Notes under the pieces: model-generated
Databases searched by the model: none
Told to the model about the DNA's origin: nothing
The model's input: only the letters and a program-made list of their open reading frames with translations
Program-made: the position numbers and the translations under genes
DNA from: Microcaldota archaeon
GTDB lineage: Archaea > Micrarchaeota > Micrarchaeia > Anstonellales > J096
NCBI GenBank assembly: GCA_015522475.1
Contig: WAMF01000012.1
Span: 1 to 44,564, forward strand
Length of the DNA: 44,564 nucleotides
Reading direction: 5' to 3'
Shown here: piece after piece, positions 1,845-44,339 of the stretch
Numbering within the stretch: the stretch's first letter is position 1
How the letters are laid out: each line of letters starts with the position of its first letter

Positions 1845-2972
1845 TTATACAAATAAGGCTTTGCCTTTTCCAACGAGGTAAACTGCCAAATATAGGGGAA
1901 AGCGCTTCAGCTCGCCTTTCTTTGCCTCTATATCCTCTTTTAAGAGCTCCACCTTTTTCACGTCTTCGAGCATTTTAATTTTTACGGGCTCGTCAGAGAA
2001 GACAATGGCCTTTTCCACTTCAAATCCCTCGAGGTTTTTTATGGGCATAACCCTAAAACCTGTGCTCCCGTGTATGCTGTTTGGCATGCGTATAAGCCTT
2101 TTGATGTCGTATGTGACAGCTCCATCTACGTCGATGCTGTGTATCTTCATAGCCTCTCCAATAACTGAGAAGCGCTCTATGAGCTTTTTGGCTCTAAGTC
2201 TACTCCATATACCCTCTTTGATGCCTTCGGCGAAGACTCGCGCTTCCTCTTTTGTTATGTTTCTATATATACGTCGAGGGTCTGCTTCTAAGATTTTGAG
2301 CGCCCGTCTGGCGAACCTCCCTGCATAACCTTCCCCTGTGGGCTTTGGTCCTCGTATTAAGCCACTCTCTTCCTTTGTAAATAGGCGCGTGTAGTCAAAG
2401 CCCCTTCCACTTACGTATTCGACGATTTTCCGCCGCTCATTTGAAGAAAGCTCTCTGAACACTTCATCCCACACATGTATATGGAAACCCTTATTGCCTG
2501 AAAATACAGCCAGGGTTTTCTTGGCTCCAAGCTCTTCCTTTATAAGATCTAAGAGTTCTGCTGCCTGCGCCTGCACGGCTTTAAGAGATTCTAAGCTCCC
2601 TTCTTCTGCGTCGAGGTCGAAGACAAGGTTAGCCCCTTGCCAGCCTTTTTGTTCCATGGGTAATGAGGGTCCTTCATAATATGCGATGGAATAACTTATG
2701 TAATGAGGTGTCTCATTGATGAGAAATGAACGAAGCTCATACGTGTCCTCGAAGGCTAGGTGCCGCCTCTCAATTTTCTTTTTATAGCCTATGCCGAACT
2801 CCCTTCGTTCTATGCTTGGCACGACGAGCTTGGCCTTTTTGTAATACTCTGCCAAGAGTGCATTGAATACAGCGTCGCTCCTTTTTTCCTCTGGACTTCT
2901 CTCTGCTTCCTCCCTTTCTCTGAACGAGAGGGCTTGCTTTAACTCTTTAGCTTTCGCGTCTATCTTTGCCAT
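1845..2972 (-). CDS. priS: DNA primase small (catalytic) subunit PriS
   Basis: This is the catalytic subunit of the archaeo-eukaryotic replicative primase, which makes primers with its partner PriL. The metal-binding pair is D119-L-D121. The second motif is SGNKGFH at 158-164. The third region is a D281-V-D283 pair followed by a conserved basic strand RLIRMPNS that ends in STGF (about 292-306). All catalytic signatures of the family are present and the length (375) is normal. The gene overlaps the end of priL by 26 bases, and AGGAGG lies 7 bases before its ATG, so the two are probably translated from one mRNA. Confidence 0.93.
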   Translation of the reverse strand: MAKIDAKAKELKQALSFREREEAERSPEEKRSDAVFNALLAEYYKKAKLVVPSIERREFGIGYKKKIERRHLAFEDTYELRSFLINETPHYISYSIAYYEGPSLPMEQKGWQGANLVFDLDAEEGSLESLKAVQAQAAELLDLIKEELGAKKTLAVFSGNKGFHIHVWDEVFRELSSNERRKIVEYVSGRGFDYTRLFTKEESGLIRGPKPTGEGYAGRFARRALKILEADPRRIYRNITKEEARVFAEGIKEGIWSRLRAKKLIERFSVIGEAMKIHSIDVDGAVTYDIKRLIRMPNSIHGSTGFRVMPIKNLEGFEVEKAIVFSDEPVKIKMLEDVKKVELLKEDIEAKKGELKRFPLYLAVYLVGKGKALFV

Positions 2973-3888
2973 TCTTACGCCTCCTGCCGTACTGCATAGG
3001 GTTTTTTATGCCACAGTTTTGCACACATAGGCCATACCCCCTTATCTTGTCACATGAAGGCATGGTGTACCTTCTTTTCTTTATGTGTTCGACTTGGTAG
3101 CGCGTTATCCTCTCCTTGAAATCCGGCAACGGTTCATACACTTTGACTATTTCGTCGACGCTGTAGCCTTTATTTACCAAATAGACTGCTAGTACCCATC
3201 TAGCTGAGTGCCCAAGATTTTCGTGCTGTTCTATTCTCTTCAAGAGGGCTTTTATGCAAGGAGGAAACGCCCCTTGATTCTTGGTAGAGAATCTTACGCG
3301 TCTTTTGGGTAAGCTTTCTTTGACTCTCTTTGCAAAGTCTTCCGCATCTTTGTCTTGGGATTTGGGTTGTGTTGACAGCAAGTTTTTGAGTGCCTCTTCG
3401 ACGATGCGCGCAAACCTTCTCCAACTCATCTCCACCTCGCCGTTCTCCAGAGAGAAATAAAAAAGGCTGTAATCTGGGCTTTCCGGTGCATGCTTGAGAA
3501 AGTCCACGACGTGCATGTGCACTCTCTTATGCTTATCGGCGCTTTCGTTTTCATCGTTTCTCACTGTCCTGAAGCGTAAGTGAAGGGCTTTTGCCATCTC
3601 TTCAACTTCTTTGTCATCTGCTTGAGAAGAAAATGCCTTAGAGTAAGCGACGGCTATTCTTCGCGTTATGTATGGGTTGGCAGCTCTAGCCATTATGAAG
3701 CGCTCAGCTAAGAACACGCGACCAAATGCCTCTTCCAGCTCAGGAGTCCACTTCTTCGGCAGCTCAATTTCTCCTGTTTTTATAGCATGAATCATTCTCT
3801 CAGCCGCTGCCTCATACTCGTCGTAGTTTGGTTTTCTTTCCTTGGCAAGCTTGGGCAGCACACCGAACAAGACGCGCGTGAATCCCAC
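2947..3888 (-). CDS. priL: DNA primase large subunit PriL
   Basis: This is the regulatory, iron-sulfur subunit of primase. Four cysteines that would hold the 4Fe-4S cluster are visible: C211 (in FPPCIKALL), C279, C288 and C292 (in PSCDKIRGYGLCVQNCG). The N-terminal half is helical, as in known PriL. The predicted start is a GTG at 3888. A box A at 3909-3918 lies 25 bases upstream, so the message is probably leaderless. The last 26 bases overlap priS, which points to coupled production of the two subunits. The gene diverges from the coiled-coil gene at 4048. Confidence 0.93.
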   Translation of the reverse strand: MGFTRVLFGVLPKLAKERKPNYDEYEAAAERMIHAIKTGEIELPKKWTPELEEAFGRVFLAERFIMARAANPYITRRIAVAYSKAFSSQADDKEVEEMAKALHLRFRTVRNDENESADKHKRVHMHVVDFLKHAPESPDYSLFYFSLENGEVEMSWRRFARIVEEALKNLLSTQPKSQDKDAEDFAKRVKESLPKRRVRFSTKNQGAFPPCIKALLKRIEQHENLGHSARWVLAVYLVNKGYSVDEIVKVYEPLPDFKERITRYQVEHIKKRRYTMPSCDKIRGYGLCVQNCGIKNPMQYGRRRKNGKDRRES

Positions 3889-14414: not shown

Positions 14415-15761
14415 TTAATCCACTTTTAGCAGGCGGAGTATGAGCTTGCTTTTTATGACGTCAAGGATTCCTTTATTCTCTTTATATGGCCAAGGGCAAC
14501 CTGCAAGCCTTTCAAATAGGCTAAGATGTGCCTCACTTATAGGGCGGTGTAGGGGTTGCGCAGGTATGTAAAGCTCTTCCTTCTTAGCTTTCTCGAGGAC
14601 ACATAGCTTTTTATCCAGCGTTTCTAAAGGCAGAGCCACATGCCCATAACGTCTTAATTGGCTATAAGCAGGACTGCCCACTATTTTGGCAAGCTTTTCC
14701 ATCTCAGCTCTTTCAAAAGCAAGGGGTGAGAAAAAGATGCGCTTGTTGCCCAAGTTGAGCCTTACATAGGGTATGGCTCTTTTCTGCAACTCAACTTTGG
14801 CTTTCTTCGACGTCTCTCTTGTAAGGGCTGTGATGGCAAGGGCATGCCTTTGGCCTTTCTTCACCCTCTCCTCTTCCTTGGCTTTTCCGGCTTTTCTTCC
14901 TGTTTCAACCGTGGATGAAACAGCATGCATAAAGACGGGCTGTGGCCCGGGGAAGGCCACGGGCCCAAGAGATAGTCTCCCAACCTTGCGAAGCGCGCTC
15001 ATAGCCAGCCTCGCTCTTTTCACGAAGCGGCTCCAGTTCCCCTTTTTATTCTCTCTTAGCCTCTTTAAAAGCCTTTTCATGGGCTCGTTGAGCTCTTCTT
15101 CGCTAATTATTCTGCACAAGAGCCCTGTCTTGGAGTTGTATGTAAAGGGCAAGCGCACAATTCTGCGCGTGTCTTTCGTGACTTTTTCGTCTATGGCTAC
15201 GTGTTTGCTTATACTCTCTACTATCTCTGCATAGGTCTCTTTGGCGTACACTTCCCTTTCTTCTGGCAGAGCAGGATACTCTTTTATAACGTCTTTAAAT
15301 GAGAGGTGAAAGCCCTTTGCTCCGGAGAAGGCAATGTATTGAAGGACCCAGCCTTTTTCTTTGGCAATGGATAAGAGGCGCTTGGCTTCATTCCTTGCTT
15401 TTTCTATGTTTTTATCGAAGCTGCTCTCTACAATATCTATATCAAAGAAAAGGTCCATGCCTAAAAACAGCGTCTGAAAACGCCTCTCCTTGCTGCTTGA
15501 CTCTATTCTATGAGGGTTAAGGAAACGGCCGATAGAGTAATATGCGTCAAGGTAATTCTTACTATAGACGTAGCTGTATATGGACCCCCACGACGTAAAG
15601 CGCCGTTTAACTTTGACAAAGCTACCCCACTTGTTTACATATCTTATGTGTCTGAACCGCGGAAAGGCTGGCAGATAAGAAAAAGCTGGTTCAAGCGAAG
15701 CGCTAAAAGGCAAAGTCGAAGGCAAGGAGGAGCTTACTTTCTTACGAATACGTGCTTCCAT
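14415..15761 (-). CDS. second archaeo-eukaryotic primase (AEP) catalytic protein
   Basis: This 448-residue protein carries the AEP catalytic set: D107-I-D109 in LFFDIDI, SGAKGFH at 146-152, and D191 with the downstream strand RRIVRLPFTYNSKTGL (199-214). The spacing matches priS at 1845. Overall sequence differs, and about 230 C-terminal residues are extra, with a basic segment (about 225-320) followed by an uncharacterised region. No PriL partner is adjacent. AEP paralogs are known in translesion synthesis, repair and mobile-element replication; which applies here is not known. The start overlaps the small gene at 15734-15973 by 28 bases, so the two are probably coupled. Confidence 0.82.
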   Translation of the reverse strand: MEARIRKKVSSSLPSTLPFSASLEPAFSYLPAFPRFRHIRYVNKWGSFVKVKRRFTSWGSIYSYVYSKNYLDAYYSIGRFLNPHRIESSSKERRFQTLFLGMDLFFDIDIVESSFDKNIEKARNEAKRLLSIAKEKGWVLQYIAFSGAKGFHLSFKDVIKEYPALPEEREVYAKETYAEIVESISKHVAIDEKVTKDTRRIVRLPFTYNSKTGLLCRIISEEELNEPMKRLLKRLRENKKGNWSRFVKRARLAMSALRKVGRLSLGPVAFPGPQPVFMHAVSSTVETGRKAGKAKEEERVKKGQRHALAITALTRETSKKAKVELQKRAIPYVRLNLGNKRIFFSPLAFERAEMEKLAKIVGSPAYSQLRRYGHVALPLETLDKKLCVLEKAKKEELYIPAQPLHRPISEAHLSLFERLAGCPWPYKENKGILDVIKSKLILRLLKVD

Positions 15762-15973
15762 ACGCCAGAATCTATGTAGCGTCTAAGCGCCTCTCTCTTG
15801 TTTTTGGCCCTCGTTCTCTTTAATAAGTTTAGGAGTTGAGTTCTAACGCTCTTTTCGTTGCCGGGCGTTATTTTTGTAGAGAGCCATTTATGAATGGACT
15901 GGTAGTTGTTAAGGTTCGGCTTGCCTTTAAATATGCCAAACAGTGCATCCCAAAAACCCATGTGCTCACCCAT
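15734..15973 (-). CDS. small basic protein upstream of the second primase
   Basis: A 79-residue basic protein (75 residues from the second ATG at 15961) with an amphipathic N-terminus (GFWDALFGIFKGK) and a helical core rich in Lys and Arg. I know no family for it. The promoter box A at 15991-16000 lies about 25 bases before it and it overlaps the primase-like gene by 28 bases, so it is the first gene of that operon and a candidate partner or DNA-binding accessory. GGTGA sits four bases before the second ATG. Confidence 0.6.
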   Translation of the reverse strand: MGEHMGFWDALFGIFKGKPNLNNYQSIHKWLSTKITPGNEKSVRTQLLNLLKRTRAKNKREALRRYIDSGVWKHVFVRK

Positions 15974-16608: not shown

Positions 16609-18465
16609 ATGGCCCGTGGGCGCTTCAAGAATAAAGAGACTCATTCGAGAGAAGACTTGTATGGCGGCAGAAGAAAGGACTTTATGCGCAACAACCCCCT
16701 CAGCGAGAGAAAACCAGAGGAAGGGCGATATAAGAACTTATATCATATACTGGAGGAGATATACAAAGGGAACGTGAGGCACAATCTTGAGGCCATGAAA
16801 GAAGCTGCCAAGAGAGATATATCAGAGAAAGAGAGGTTCTCTAAATCCTATTCAAAGAAGATTTCGGAAATTGTAAAATTCTTTGTCAGAAATGGCAGAT
16901 ATGGGTATGCTCTAGAGATATTAGATGTGGCGATGGAGGTAGATAAGAATGACATTGTATTTAAAAGTCAGTACTTAGATATACTAGCAAAATCGATAGG
17001 GGACCCTGTTAAAGTATGGGGATTTTTTGAAAATATAGAGAACCCTGACTCTGTGACATATTCAACGATGATAAGCTTCTACGCTGATTTGTATGAGAAG
17101 ACGAAAAGCGACAAATACTTCAAAAAAGCAGAGGAGTTATTTACCGAAGCTAAAAGCAGTAACAAGATTGATGTTGGTGTTTATAATAGCTATCTAAAGC
17201 TGCTGACAATCGAAGGCGAAGAGAAGCGAGCAGAGGAGCTACTGAAGCGGATCAAAAACCCCACTCCTATAACCTACTCAACGATGATAAGCTTCTACGC
17301 TGATTTATATAAAAAAAGAAGGGACAATGAATACTTTGAAAAGGCAAGAGCTCTCTTTAACGCATCTAAAAACCATAATAAAGTTGACATTGGTGTTTAT
17401 AGTAGTTACCTAAAACTGCTGACAATTAAGGGTGATGAGGAACAGGTAAAGGAATTATTCGAGCAGATTAAGAATCCAAACTCAATAACCTACTCTACAA
17501 TGATAAGCTTCTATGCTGATCTATATGAGAAGACGAAAAGCGACAAATACTTCAAAAAAGCAGAGGAGTTATTTGCCAAGGCTAAAAACAGTAACAAGGT
17601 TGATGTTAGTGTTTATAATAGCTATCTAAAGCTACTGATAATCAAAGGTGACGAAAAAACGTTAGAAAAAATCTTCAAGGAGATTAAGAATCCAAACTCA
17701 ATAACCTACTCAACGATGATAAGCTTCTATGCTGAGTTGTATGAGAGAACTAAGAATGAAGAATATCTCGAAAAGGCAAAGGCGTTATCTACTAACGCTA
17801 AAAGAAATAACAAAATTAGTGTTGGTGTTTATAATAGCTATTTGAAGATGTTGACGGTTAAGGGTGAGAAGAAAGAGATTGAGGAGTTTTTCAACCAGAT
17901 TAAAGACCCTGATAATGTTACGTATCGTACCTTCCTAACATATTTGTACAAGCGTGAAGAGTATGCAGAAATTGTAAAATTTATGAATGAGCTTAAAGAA
18001 AGAGGAAATTTACCCCTCTCTGGTTTTATTGAACTATATATTACTGGCTTGGAGGCCCTAAGAAAGTTGAAGAGGTGGGATGAACTAGAGAAGGAATTAG
18101 AATCACTCGAAAAGTTAGTCGAGGGTAAATCTCTAAATGAGGATATGCTTGTGCATTTGAAGGTGATAAAAGCCTATTCTTTGATGGTAAGAGGGAGAAA
18201 ATCTGAGGATGCTAAAGAGAAAGAAGCTCTTCTACTTGAAGCCAAAAAATTATTTAGGCATCTAAGGGATACTATTAGCAGAGATTCGCCCCATTACATA
18301 AGAGTGCTCGTAGGATGGGTCTTCATAAATGATGATCTTCGTGATTATGAGTTACTTAAGAAGGACTACGACGAGCTGATCGATGCATTAGAGGTGGCTT
18401 TGGATAGAGGAGAAGGTAATCAGATAGATATCGAGAATGCTTTGGACATTCTCCTTGATTTATGA
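16609..18465 (+). CDS. pentatricopeptide-repeat-like protein
   Basis: The 618-residue protein starts with a basic tail (1-45) and has four consecutive units of exactly 72 residues (145-432) followed by degenerate repeats. Each unit is NPxSITYSTMISFYADLY, a second helix such as YFKKAEELFAKAK, then VxVYNSYLKLLTIKGD and a last helix ending EIK. The YSTMI and YNSYLK first helices, paired with A/LF second helices, match PPR motifs, with a longer motif of about 42 and a short one of about 30 residues alternating. PPR proteins bind single-stranded RNA and are mainly eukaryotic. TPR or a related helical repeat is the alternative. The 3' end overlaps the convergent HAD gene by 6 bases. Confidence 0.75.
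   Translation: MARGRFKNKETHSREDLYGGRRKDFMRNNPLSERKPEEGRYKNLYHILEEIYKGNVRHNLEAMKEAAKRDISEKERFSKSYSKKISEIVKFFVRNGRYGYALEILDVAMEVDKNDIVFKSQYLDILAKSIGDPVKVWGFFENIENPDSVTYSTMISFYADLYEKTKSDKYFKKAEELFTEAKSSNKIDVGVYNSYLKLLTIEGEEKRAEELLKRIKNPTPITYSTMISFYADLYKKRRDNEYFEKARALFNASKNHNKVDIGVYSSYLKLLTIKGDEEQVKELFEQIKNPNSITYSTMISFYADLYEKTKSDKYFKKAEELFAKAKNSNKVDVSVYNSYLKLLIIKGDEKTLEKIFKEIKNPNSITYSTMISFYAELYERTKNEEYLEKAKALSTNAKRNNKISVGVYNSYLKMLTVKGEKKEIEEFFNQIKDPDNVTYRTFLTYLYKREEYAEIVKFMNELKERGNLPLSGFIELYITGLEALRKLKRWDELEKELESLEKLVEGKSLNEDMLVHLKVIKAYSLMVRGRKSEDAKEKEALLLEAKKLFRHLRDTISRDSPHYIRVLVGWVFINDDLRDYELLKKDYDELIDALEVALDRGEGNQIDIENALDILLDL
17041..17904 (+). repeat. four tandem 216-bp units inside the PPR-like gene
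   Basis: Units begin at 17041, 17257, 17473 and 17689 with no length variation. Units 1 and 3 share an uninterrupted 51-base identity (17092-17142 and 17524-17574). Units 3 and 4 share their first 23 bases. A fifth, partial unit begins at 17905. The pattern points to fairly recent duplication or gene conversion. Confidence 0.85.
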
Positions 18466-41200: not shown

Positions 41201-42562
41201 TTATATTTTCTTTAATTTTCTCTGAGCCCGCTGCCTATCTAAACCAATTTCTCCCAGCAGCCACTTCCACAGCGGGATGAATTTAACGCGTTTCCTTTCG
41301 GATTTGCCCCAGGGTTTTAACAGCTCTTCGCCTTTGTAATCCCACGTAATGATCAGCAACTCTTCTGCCTTTAACTGCTCGCTAGCCGCTAGAAGGGCTC
41401 TAAGCTCTCTCTTCTCTATCTCGTCTAAGCTGCTGGCATAGCTTACTTGGATAAGCTGCTTAACCTGGCCTCGCTCCTTAACGACGAAATCTACTTCATA
41501 ATCCCTGCCTTTGTAGTAGAAGAGGGTCTTACCCGGCACGTAACCTCGCCTATATAGCTCTAAGAACACGGCATTTTCCATACGCTTGCCTATATCCTTG
41601 CTGAACACTGATGGATATAGTGATAAGAAACCATTGTCCATTGCATAGAGCTTTCGTGGGTTTCTTAACATGTCAGAATACTTAAATGCATAGACTGGGG
41701 GTGTTGCAACCAAAAAGACATCTACCATGAGCTTTACATAATTTATAACAGAATCTTTGCTTATACGATAACCGCTGGATTTTAGCACATTAGTTAAGCG
41801 AGTGAATGTGAATGTTTTAGTGGCTCTCTCAAAGAGGAGGTTAGCCAATGCATCAATTACAATCCCTTTGTCGGGATCTACACGCGTCTTCACATCTCTA
41901 GCTAATATGTCGGACAGAGTATTCTCCACATATGTGAAGTCATCGTGGAGTATGGAATAGGGAAGGCCTCCCTTTTCCAAGAAAGCAGATAATGTAGCTT
42001 TTATCTTACTCACAGAGCTCTCTGTGGGTTTTACTGAGATGTTTTTGAATAATAAATACTCCCTAAAATTGAGAGGGAAGAACGTTAATGTGCGGTGCCT
42101 TCCACTCAGCAGCTCTCCATAATCATCTGAGAGAAGGTGTTTCACAGAGCCTGAGACAAAAAGCTTCACTTTTCCTCTGAATTCATCAAAGAGACTCTTG
42201 GCAAAGATTTCCCATCCTTTTACAGTCTGCACTTCATCTAAGAACACATAGACATTGCCTTTATTCAAGAGATCCTCACTATATATAATCTCTACAATAC
42301 TATTCAAATCCTGGTGGGAGAAGGGGTAAAGGAGCCTATGCTCGCAGTTGACATAAATAGCTTGTTTTACTGAACTTTCTCTTCTTATCTCGTTGATGAG
42401 ATGGTACATGAAATAGGTTTTGCCGCTTCGCCTTAACCCCACAATGTCCGTTATAAGTTCGTTTTTCAGGAGTGTATCGTCATATATACGAGGCATAACA
42501 CCCTCTAGCTTATCCTCCCAAAAGCCATATATGTATTGTTTAATGGCAGCCTTTTTGTCCAT
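41201..42562 (-). CDS. AAA_14/DUF4143-family ATPase
   Basis: The protein (453 residues from the ATG at 42562) has Walker A GLRRSGKT, Walker B VYVFLDEVQ, the sensor VSGSVKHLL, and a C-terminal DUF4143 part with LELYRRGY, YYKGRDYEVDFVV and LIQVSYA that resembles a nuclease fold. The family is widespread in archaea as mobile, patchily distributed ATPases; its role is not established. Upstream ATGs at 42577 and 42631 are in frame, but a box A at 42585-42594 lies about 27 bases before 42562 and overlaps the longest extension. It stands next to the AbiE-type pair. Confidence 0.85.
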   Translation of the reverse strand: MDKKAAIKQYIYGFWEDKLEGVMPRIYDDTLLKNELITDIVGLRRSGKTYFMYHLINEIRRESSVKQAIYVNCEHRLLYPFSHQDLNSIVEIIYSEDLLNKGNVYVFLDEVQTVKGWEIFAKSLFDEFRGKVKLFVSGSVKHLLSDDYGELLSGRHRTLTFFPLNFREYLLFKNISVKPTESSVSKIKATLSAFLEKGGLPYSILHDDFTYVENTLSDILARDVKTRVDPDKGIVIDALANLLFERATKTFTFTRLTNVLKSSGYRISKDSVINYVKLMVDVFLVATPPVYAFKYSDMLRNPRKLYAMDNGFLSLYPSVFSKDIGKRMENAVFLELYRRGYVPGKTLFYYKGRDYEVDFVVKERGQVKQLIQVSYASSLDEIEKRELRALLAASEQLKAEELLIITWDYKGEELLKPWGKSERKRVKFIPLWKWLLGEIGLDRQRAQRKLKKI

Positions 42563-42584
42563 ACTCGAATTAGACATAGAAAAG

Positions 42585-42594
42585 CTTATAAATA
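42585..42594 (-). promoter_or_regulatory. box A of the ATPase gene
   Basis: On the minus strand this reads TATTTATAAG, about 27 bases before the ATG at 42562. Confidence 0.6.
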
Positions 42595-42604
42595 TGCAGT
42601 TTTT

Positions 42605-42652
42605 GCTCATTTTGTCCAATCGAGTTGACAAAAATGAGCATTTTTGTCCAAT
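42605..42652. promoter_or_regulatory. overlapping inverted and direct repeats above the ATPase promoter
   Basis: GACAAAAAT (42627-42635) and ATTTTTGTC (42640-42648) form a perfect 9-bp inverted repeat. GCTCATTTTGTC (42605-42616) pairs with GACAAAAATGAGC (42627-42639) with one extra base. TTTTGTCCAAT occurs directly twice (42610, 42642). Three TTTTGTC half-sites next to box A look like an operator. Confidence 0.55.
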
Positions 42653-42963: not shown

Positions 42964-43632
42964 ATGAATGTGGAAACTGTAGATATTTTAAACGCCCTGA
43001 AAAAGATGCCTGTGTTCAGCCTCTCAGACTATGCGAAGCTCGTGGAAAATACGTATGCAAAAGCATCACTTAGGCGGCTGGTGAAAAAAGGCCTCGTTCA
43101 CCGCGTGCGCAGAGACGTTTATACTGTATATGACGACCCGCTTATGGTAGCGCCCTTTACTTATAGGCCTTCTTATATAGGAGGCTATAGCGCTCTTCAT
43201 ATGCACGGCTTACTGGACCAAATTCCAAAGGATATGCTCTGCTTTACAACTAGGCCTCTTTTAAAATTAAAGTTCTCAAACACGCTCATCCTCTACAAGC
43301 ATACAAAGAACCTGTTTGGCTATTCATTTGTGGAGTACAAGGGCTTCAAAATACCTGTGGCTACTCCTGAAAAAGCCTTTGCGGAATCCATTGGCCTTAT
43401 TCCCTTTAGCCTTATTTTACCCTATTTTGATAGCCTCGATATGGAAAAGATGAAAGAGCTTCTCCTGCGACTGCCTAAAGGAAAGGAACGCAGGGTTGCA
43501 TATCTCCTCCATTTAAAGGGGGTGGATGTTAAGGTTATTGCCAGTAAGAGACCTATCTTGCTAGACCCTTTAGGCCCAAGAGAGGGAGAGCTTGACAGGA
43601 GCTTTAACATAATAAAGAATGTGAGACTATGA
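42964..43632 (+). CDS. AbiEi-type antitoxin / winged-helix regulator
   Basis: The 222-residue protein has an N-terminal winged helix (FSLSDYAKLVENTYAKASLR, LVKKGLVHRVRRDVYTVYDD), then the AbiEi-family core YIGGYSALHMHGLLDQIP and VATPEKAFAESI. In AbiE systems this protein binds its own promoter and counteracts the toxin; that is known for the family. Its stop overlaps the start of the next gene by four bases (ATGA), typical of coupled toxin-antitoxin translation. Confidence 0.85.
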   Translation: MNVETVDILNALKKMPVFSLSDYAKLVENTYAKASLRRLVKKGLVHRVRRDVYTVYDDPLMVAPFTYRPSYIGGYSALHMHGLLDQIPKDMLCFTTRPLLKLKFSNTLILYKHTKNLFGYSFVEYKGFKIPVATPEKAFAESIGLIPFSLILPYFDSLDMEKMKELLLRLPKGKERRVAYLLHLKGVDVKVIASKRPILLDPLGPREGELDRSFNIIKNVRL

Positions 43633-44339
43633 TAGATAAAGAGGAAATCATCAGAATTGCAAAAGCAAAAGACTTATTGAACCGCGAGTTTATAGAGAAA
43701 GACTATTACATCGACTTAATCCTTTACAGAATATCCAAAGCCAACGTAAAAGCAGTATTTAAGGGAGGCACAGCGCTGTATAAAATATATAAGGTGCCTA
43801 GATTTTCAGAGGATTTGGATTTCGCACCCTTAGAGAGCATCGAAGCTATAGAGGAAAAAGTGGGAAACATCGCCAAAAGCCTGCGATTTGATATGGAGGC
43901 AAAAAAGTTTGGTACATCATTCTTTGCAAAACTCTCCTTTAAGGGCTTTCTCACTCAAAGGAACCGTATAAAATTGGAATTCAACAATCTCTTTAAGCCT
44001 CTTCATTACCATGTGGAAACGTACATCTCAGATTACATTGATATACCACCCTTCATGATATCCGTCATGGACAAGAGGGAAATTTTAGCTGAGAAAATCC
44101 ATGCCATTTACCATCGTCTAAGCGCTAGGGATCTTTATGATCTCTTTTACCTGCTCCGCACAGAGAGGCCCGATTTCGAATTGATTAGGGAGAAGGTGCC
44201 CGAATTCAATCATGAAAGCTTCGAGGAACGGCTCTCAGAATACGAAAGAGTGTGGGATAAAGAGATAAAGCTCTTTGCCTTGGAGTATGTGTCCTTCGAG
44301 GTTGTTAAAAGATATGTTAGCGAGAAGATGAAGTCGTAA
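43629..44339 (+). CDS. AbiEii-type nucleotidyltransferase toxin
   Basis: The 236-residue protein has the nucleotidyltransferase motif FKGGTALYKIYKVPRFSED followed by LDFA, giving GG(T) and the Asp pair of the AbiEii/AbiGii family. Downstream is the conserved DKREILAEKIHAI with RLSARDLYDLFYLL. AbiEii toxins modify RNA or tRNA by nucleotide transfer and arrest growth or block phage; this is family knowledge. Translation is coupled to the antitoxin by a 4-base overlap. All expected motif residues seem present, so the pair may be active. Confidence 0.86.
   Translation: MIDKEEIIRIAKAKDLLNREFIEKDYYIDLILYRISKANVKAVFKGGTALYKIYKVPRFSEDLDFAPLESIEAIEEKVGNIAKSLRFDMEAKKFGTSFFAKLSFKGFLTQRNRIKLEFNNLFKPLHYHVETYISDYIDIPPFMISVMDKREILAEKIHAIYHRLSARDLYDLFYLLRTERPDFELIREKVPEFNHESFEERLSEYERVWDKEIKLFALEYVSFEVVKRYVSEKMKS

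Follow-up and report, generated by a model that had tools for sequence, protein, structure and literature searches.

Why would a Micrarchaeota genome of 0.91 Mb, already equipped with a replicative primase, carry a second primase-like gene coupled to a small basic one? The question arises from a stretch of 44,564 nucleotides (contig WAMF01000012.1; hereafter the window). A sequence-only reading had seen there a second archaeo-eukaryotic primase (AEP), referred to below as AEP2, and had proposed two roles for it: a lesion-bypass or repair primase-polymerase with a dedicated partner, or a domesticated mobile-element primase. The AEPs known to act outside replication come chiefly from NHEJ, eukaryotic PrimPol and mobile elements. 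We consider in turn what AEP2 is related to, what accompanies it, where it occurs and which of the possible roles these data favour.

The gene pair and the replicative primase

AEP2 (14415–15761, minus strand; 448 aa) is identified as a PriS-related AEP by its open reading frame, PriS models, a profile comparison with the PDB and Foldseek. The ORF of its small basic partner (15734–15973, minus strand; 79 aa) precedes it, and the two annotated frames, both of which exist as first read, overlap by 28 nt. Relatives of the partner begin with MG[FIL][FWL]D, which the window matches at the second methionine (MGFWDALFG, ATG at 15961); the true protein is thus probably 75 aa long (15734–15961). The start of AEP2 at 15761 is uncertain because residues 1–30 are unconserved and modelled with low confidence. 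A TTG at 15725, noted in the sequence, is perhaps an alternative start, and the overlap with the partner would then disappear.

A TATA-like TTTTTAAA, read from the sequence (15999–15992, minus strand), lies some 20 nt upstream of the partner's first ATG, a distance that suits either start. It is a plausible archaeal promoter element, which would give a leaderless or short-leader transcript. A sigma-70 promoter scan gave no match, as expected for an archaeal host.

The replicative primase is encoded in the same window by PriS, the catalytic subunit (1845–2972, minus strand; PF01896 E 1.6e-22, TIGR00335 above cutoff), and PriL (2947–3888, minus strand; PF04104 E 5e-21), whose frames overlap each other. 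A genome-wide search found PriL in single copy, adjoining PriS, and no second PriL. AEP2 is indeed a second AEP beside the PriS/PriL pair at 2–4 kb and has no PriL neighbour. Several AEP2 carriers searched by profile also contain a second, weak PriS-like match. The beginning of the Gins23 model aligns with the C-terminus of the window's PriS (E 3e-4); a domain shared by GINS and PriS has already been described (PMC2861644).

Other genes of the window deserve mention in their own right. Next to the AEP2 pair, 16609–18465 (plus strand) encodes a protein of 618 aa whose pentatricopeptide repeats (PPR_2, E 3.5e-18) belong to a class unusual in archaea. Further on, judged by eye, one ORF resembles a DUF4143-type ATPase (41201–42631, minus strand) and two adjoining ORFs resemble an AbiEi/AbiEii-type toxin-antitoxin pair (42964–44339, plus strand).

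The active site of AEP2 is intact and its nearest relative is PriS

The catalytic core of AEP2 (residues ~34–229; 15075–15660, minus strand; pLDDT mostly 85–96) carries the motifs DLFFDID (D107, D109), SGAKGFH (146–152) and ID191..D197TRRIVRLP. The residues D107, D109, S146-G-x-K-G-x-H152, D191, D197, R199, R200 and R203 are invariant among the 19 homologues compared, which represent eight archaeal lineages; the full catalytic set first noticed in the window is real. DxD, SGxxGxH and the Asp/Arg residues of motif III, together with the AEP fold, make AEP2 a member of the AEP superfamily.

AEP2 nevertheless scores under the cutoffs of the PriS families (PF01896, 19.4 vs 26.8 bits; TIGR00335, 44 vs 143.5; NF001641, 46 vs 326). 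The profile of the 19 homologues compared with the PDB retrieves archaeal PriS (1zt2) at E 3.8e-14 and an NHEJ polymerase at E 0.38. With the AlphaFold model of AEP2 (mean pLDDT 82) the top Foldseek matches are PriS structures (1zt2/5of3, E 6e-10), LigD coming later (E 4e-6). By profile and by fold AEP2 is nearest to archaeal PriS, and LigD-type enzymes are more distant.

The resemblance to PriS (PF01896/TIGR00335) extends from the AEP fold, DxD and SGxxGxH to a motif III with RxxRxP, and to a Y-x-S motif upstream of motif I that the accessible text of PMC12770985 describes for archaeal PriS. The differences are as clear: motifs II and III are separated by 45–51 aa in the AEP2 family (~47 in the window), the PriS median being 116, and AEP2 has an extra C-terminal domain and a small partner but no PriL neighbour, besides forming a sporadic, separate clade below the PriS cutoffs.

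These data bear on the possibility that AEP2 is a second replicative-type subunit using the PriL of the genome, for example under special conditions, with the small protein as a PriX-like accessory. Small accessory primase subunits such as PriX are a precedent in Sulfolobales, according to the accessible part of PMC12019639; the closest relatives of AEP2 are archaeal PriS, and 12 of 14 carrier genomes have exactly one PriL with which it could pair. However, AEP2 lacks the long insert of PriS between motifs II and III, possesses its own C-terminal domain and is not linked to PriL. In addition its gene is sporadic, and the transmembrane helices found in some partners (see below) are ill-suited to a replisome subunit. 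We hold this possibility to be decidedly unlikely.

An NHEJ-type polymerase, the archaeal analogue of LigD-PolDom, is less probable still. The short minimal core does resemble the LigD polymerase domain (PF21686) in its layout, and 9 of the 19 family members give a weak match to the LigD_Prim-Pol model. But in the profile comparison above the LigD-type structures fall far below PriS, the C-terminal domain of AEP2 is new with respect to LigD, and neither ligase nor Ku was seen adjoining AEP2. Ku is present in two of 22 AEP2 carriers and absent from the other 20, as it is from the window's genome; a role in NHEJ is unlikely for this reason, and we attach hardly any weight to it.

The C-terminal domain

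Everything beyond residue ~220 of AEP2 corresponds to the 230-residue extension announced by the first reading. Most of it is a distinct alpha/beta domain (residues ~276–448; 14418–14936, minus strand) of beta-alpha-beta-beta-alpha-beta order, modelled with pLDDT mostly 80–96, in which K356, S409 and H412 are invariant or nearly so in the alignment. The profile of this domain found no relative in Pfam or the PDB. That it could be a duplicated palm was considered and set aside, hhalign giving no signal against the catalytic core.

Two Thermoplasmata members of the family have neither this domain nor a recognisable partner. This joint absence, in a tiny sample, fits a C-terminal domain that would serve as docking site for the partner.

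A small partner gene is conserved beside AEP2

The small frame represents a genuine gene: its homologues adjacent to AEP2 elsewhere are found by BLASTP at E 1e-15, 1e-18 and 5e-14, each a single comparison. With two nanoarchaeal exceptions, the partner adjoins AEP2 in all 24 non-MGII members that possess the C-terminal domain, the labels MGII, "Nano" and "Therm" of some loci being inferred from the centre of the genome search. It is adjacent in eight Micrarchaeota (seven times upstream, and downstream in L028), three Altiarchaeota, seven Methanomicrobiales, one Woesearchaeota and one Undinarchaeales, and lies downstream of AEP2 in three Methanomassiliicoccales and in MGIII. The gene order thus switches while the linkage is kept. 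Since the small frame keeps its place beside AEP2 across archaeal phyla, the idea of a dedicated partner, first put forward from the window alone, is well supported. The two nanoarchaeal (Woesearchaeota-class) members without an adjacent partner are L116 and L117; by eye, the genes immediately preceding their AEP2 encode a polysaccharide flippase and an ABC ATPase.

In ~25 MGII loci where the sequence extends far enough, the gene 3' of AEP2 carries a similar core (Y-x-S-I-I-A...). Aligned by hhalign to the other partners, the MGII proteins reach a probability of 62% and a score of 24.5; the maximum over 150 column shuffles was 12.5, none of the 150 coming near. The MGII downstream gene is therefore a probable homologue of the partner core.

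The partner of the window is modelled (mean pLDDT 74) as a short hydrophobic N-terminal helix followed by three or four helices that form the core. This fold has no significant match in the PDB; MIT domains, the candidates retrieved, were rejected with E above 4.

Across the family the core is joined to varying N-termini. Short hydrophobic MGxFDxL helices are found in most DPANN, in Altiarchaeota L020/L021 and in some MGII, and zinc ribbons in L035, L080 and L081 (PF13240 at 1e-7 in L081). Many MGII partners have either a pair of transmembrane helices or a transmembrane/DUF3592 module, and separately that of Altiarchaeota L115 has one transmembrane helix (hydropathy 2.7). C-terminal additions also occur, with a sub-threshold SHOCT match in MGIII and AN1-like finger matches in MGII. 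The Methanomassiliicoccales/MGIII partners (L118 2897–3370, L119, L026 6317–7087) contain an inserted motif, RLRSLGLxxDxxxKQWVAK / HLKKFGFRWSHNQKTWFLK; a HARP/DUF5710-like identity was not retained for it, DUF5710 alone being matched, below threshold (E 0.03), in one of two cases (MGIII).

The window's own partner has no transmembrane helix, and the hydrophobic moment of its MGxFDxL segment (0.31) is at the background of the window (0.30). That it binds the membrane is accordingly a guess, suggested by the exchange of this segment with real transmembrane helices elsewhere.

AEP2 is sparse in most archaeal groups and common in Poseidoniia

In the search of the window's class, family members scored above 265 bits and PriS below 50 bits. 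Strong AEP2 family members were found in 8 of 301 genomes of this class, 8/232 of the Methanoregula class, 5/200 of the Methanomassiliicoccales class, 3/281 of the Woesearchaeota class, three of 29 Altiarchaeota and one of the 10 genomes of the Undinarchaeota phylum. The exception to this sparse distribution is the class of the MGIII genome, with 118 carriers among 293 genomes, which we take as the marine class Poseidoniia/MGII on the strength of the class itself and of loci with the sucCD-AEP order. AEP2 is single copy in nearly all carriers.

In a tree of 65 AEP rows, whose long branches leave the deep placements uncertain, all 34 family members lie together on one side of a branch with support 94/91 (94% of bootstrap trees), and 27 PriS rows of the Micrarchaeota class stand apart (100/99). 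AEP2 does not, then, simply group with PriS. Micrarchaeota members occupy more than one place in the tree and Altiarchaeota are nested beside the clade of the window, which suggests that the gene either moved between archaeal phyla or is an ancient paralogue subsequently lost in some lineages.

Apparent transfer and patchy distribution would be expected of a gene coming from a mobile element or virus, either domesticated or still the primase of a resident plasmid or virus. Haloarchaeal plasmids offer a further parallel. Their operon (L113, L114; e.g. NZ_CP084468.1) encodes a large ATPase, a remote minimal AEP of 295 aa and a "primase-associated protein" of ~505 aa, i.e. a minimal AEP in operon with a dedicated protein, as for AEP2. 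This separate AEP-partner pairing is worth a study of its own. The plasmid enzymes differ from AEP2 in size (~295 aa), in lacking the C-terminal domain, in the length of their partner and in the ATPase gene upstream. They were the only matches of the plasmid search, covering between one third and one half of AEP2 at 26–31% identity, limited to part of the core, and they fall outside the AEP2 family in the tree. No relative was found in 2.9 million viral contigs, searched with the single sequence and the profile, nor in 50,697 phage records.

Domain content points the same way. Like the mobile primases of the PrimPol-PV1 supergroup and PolpTN2, as the accessible text of PMC5862659 presents them, AEP2 combines an AEP core and a C-terminal extension; unlike them it is chromosomal, has no viral or plasmid members, and showed no PriCT or helicase domain when 19 family members, and the C-terminal domain by itself, were compared with Pfam. 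With regard to the UL52-type zinc finger of eukaryotic PrimPol, no Pfam zinc-finger match in AEP2 was supported by more than one member.

The gene neighbourhood also argues against a mobile origin. The chromosomal neighbours of AEP2 include sucCD, enolase and thermosome, and in many MGII genomes its place beside sucCD is stable. The second proposal of the first reading, a domesticated mobile-element primase, is thus unsupported, and we regard any origin of this kind as very unlikely. Apart from the partner, no neighbour shared across phyla was found. In one Woesearchaeota locus (L033 4944–7690) AEP2 and an apparent PriS-PriL fusion, judged by eye, are convergently oriented.

Another possible explanation is that AEP2 and its partner serve in defence or signalling. 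Upon entry of foreign DNA the AEP would respond at the membrane by synthesizing DNA, RNA or a signalling nucleotide, and the partner would be sensor or effector. The sporadic distribution and the interchangeable transmembrane, zinc-ribbon and SHOCT-like modules of the partner speak for this, and a Thermus mobile-element primase-polymerase is reported, in the accessible part of PMC7693054, to defend against environmental DNA. On the other hand, PADLOC gave no match, the loci read showed no defence-island neighbours, and the gene is retained as nearly core in many MGII genomes. We consider such a module unlikely, while giving it some weight.

Discussion

We propose, with a probability of about one half, that AEP2 is a chromosomal non-replicative primase-polymerase of PriS stock with a dedicated positioning adaptor, possibly at the membrane. 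It would share its ancestry with PriS, from which it differs by the missing insert between motifs II and III, and since its active site is intact we infer that it is an active polymerase. The helical core of the adaptor probably binds AEP2, most likely at the C-terminal domain. The N-terminal module of the adaptor, which may be a transmembrane helix, an MGxFDxL helix or a zinc ribbon, would hold AEP2 at a surface or scaffold, which in some lineages would be the membrane; linkage and module swapping are what lead us to this adaptor role and surface placement. So positioned, AEP2 would serve to prime DNA synthesis, or to extend DNA, where the template is single-stranded or damaged, in gap filling, repriming or the handling of foreign or imported DNA. 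The lesion-bypass or repair role suggested at the outset is plausible in this framework. Several observations count against the proposal: the weak homology between the MGII partners and those of other lineages, the two nanoarchaeal members lacking an adjacent partner, and a neighbourhood with neither repair nor defence genes.

A bolder version, which we put forward tentatively and think rather improbable, is a widespread membrane-linked archaeal system in which an adaptor with interchangeable anchors would hold an active PriS relative, which would act on DNA or RNA that enters the cell, is exported or is bound to the membrane.

The papers searched on AEP families, archaeal dark-matter islands and Asgard primases (PMC5862659, PMC4538821, PMC4158269, PMC12770985) contain, in their openly accessible text, no description of the AEP2 family. 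If our proposal is true, a chromosomal sister of PriS with its own partner would add a class of cellular primase, common in the abundant marine Poseidoniia and present also in Micrarchaeota with minimal genomes. AEP2 and its partner form a concrete gene pair with which archaeal DNA repriming and repair can be tested, and the transmembrane or amphipathic modules of the partner raise the unusual possibility that DNA synthesis may take place at the membrane.
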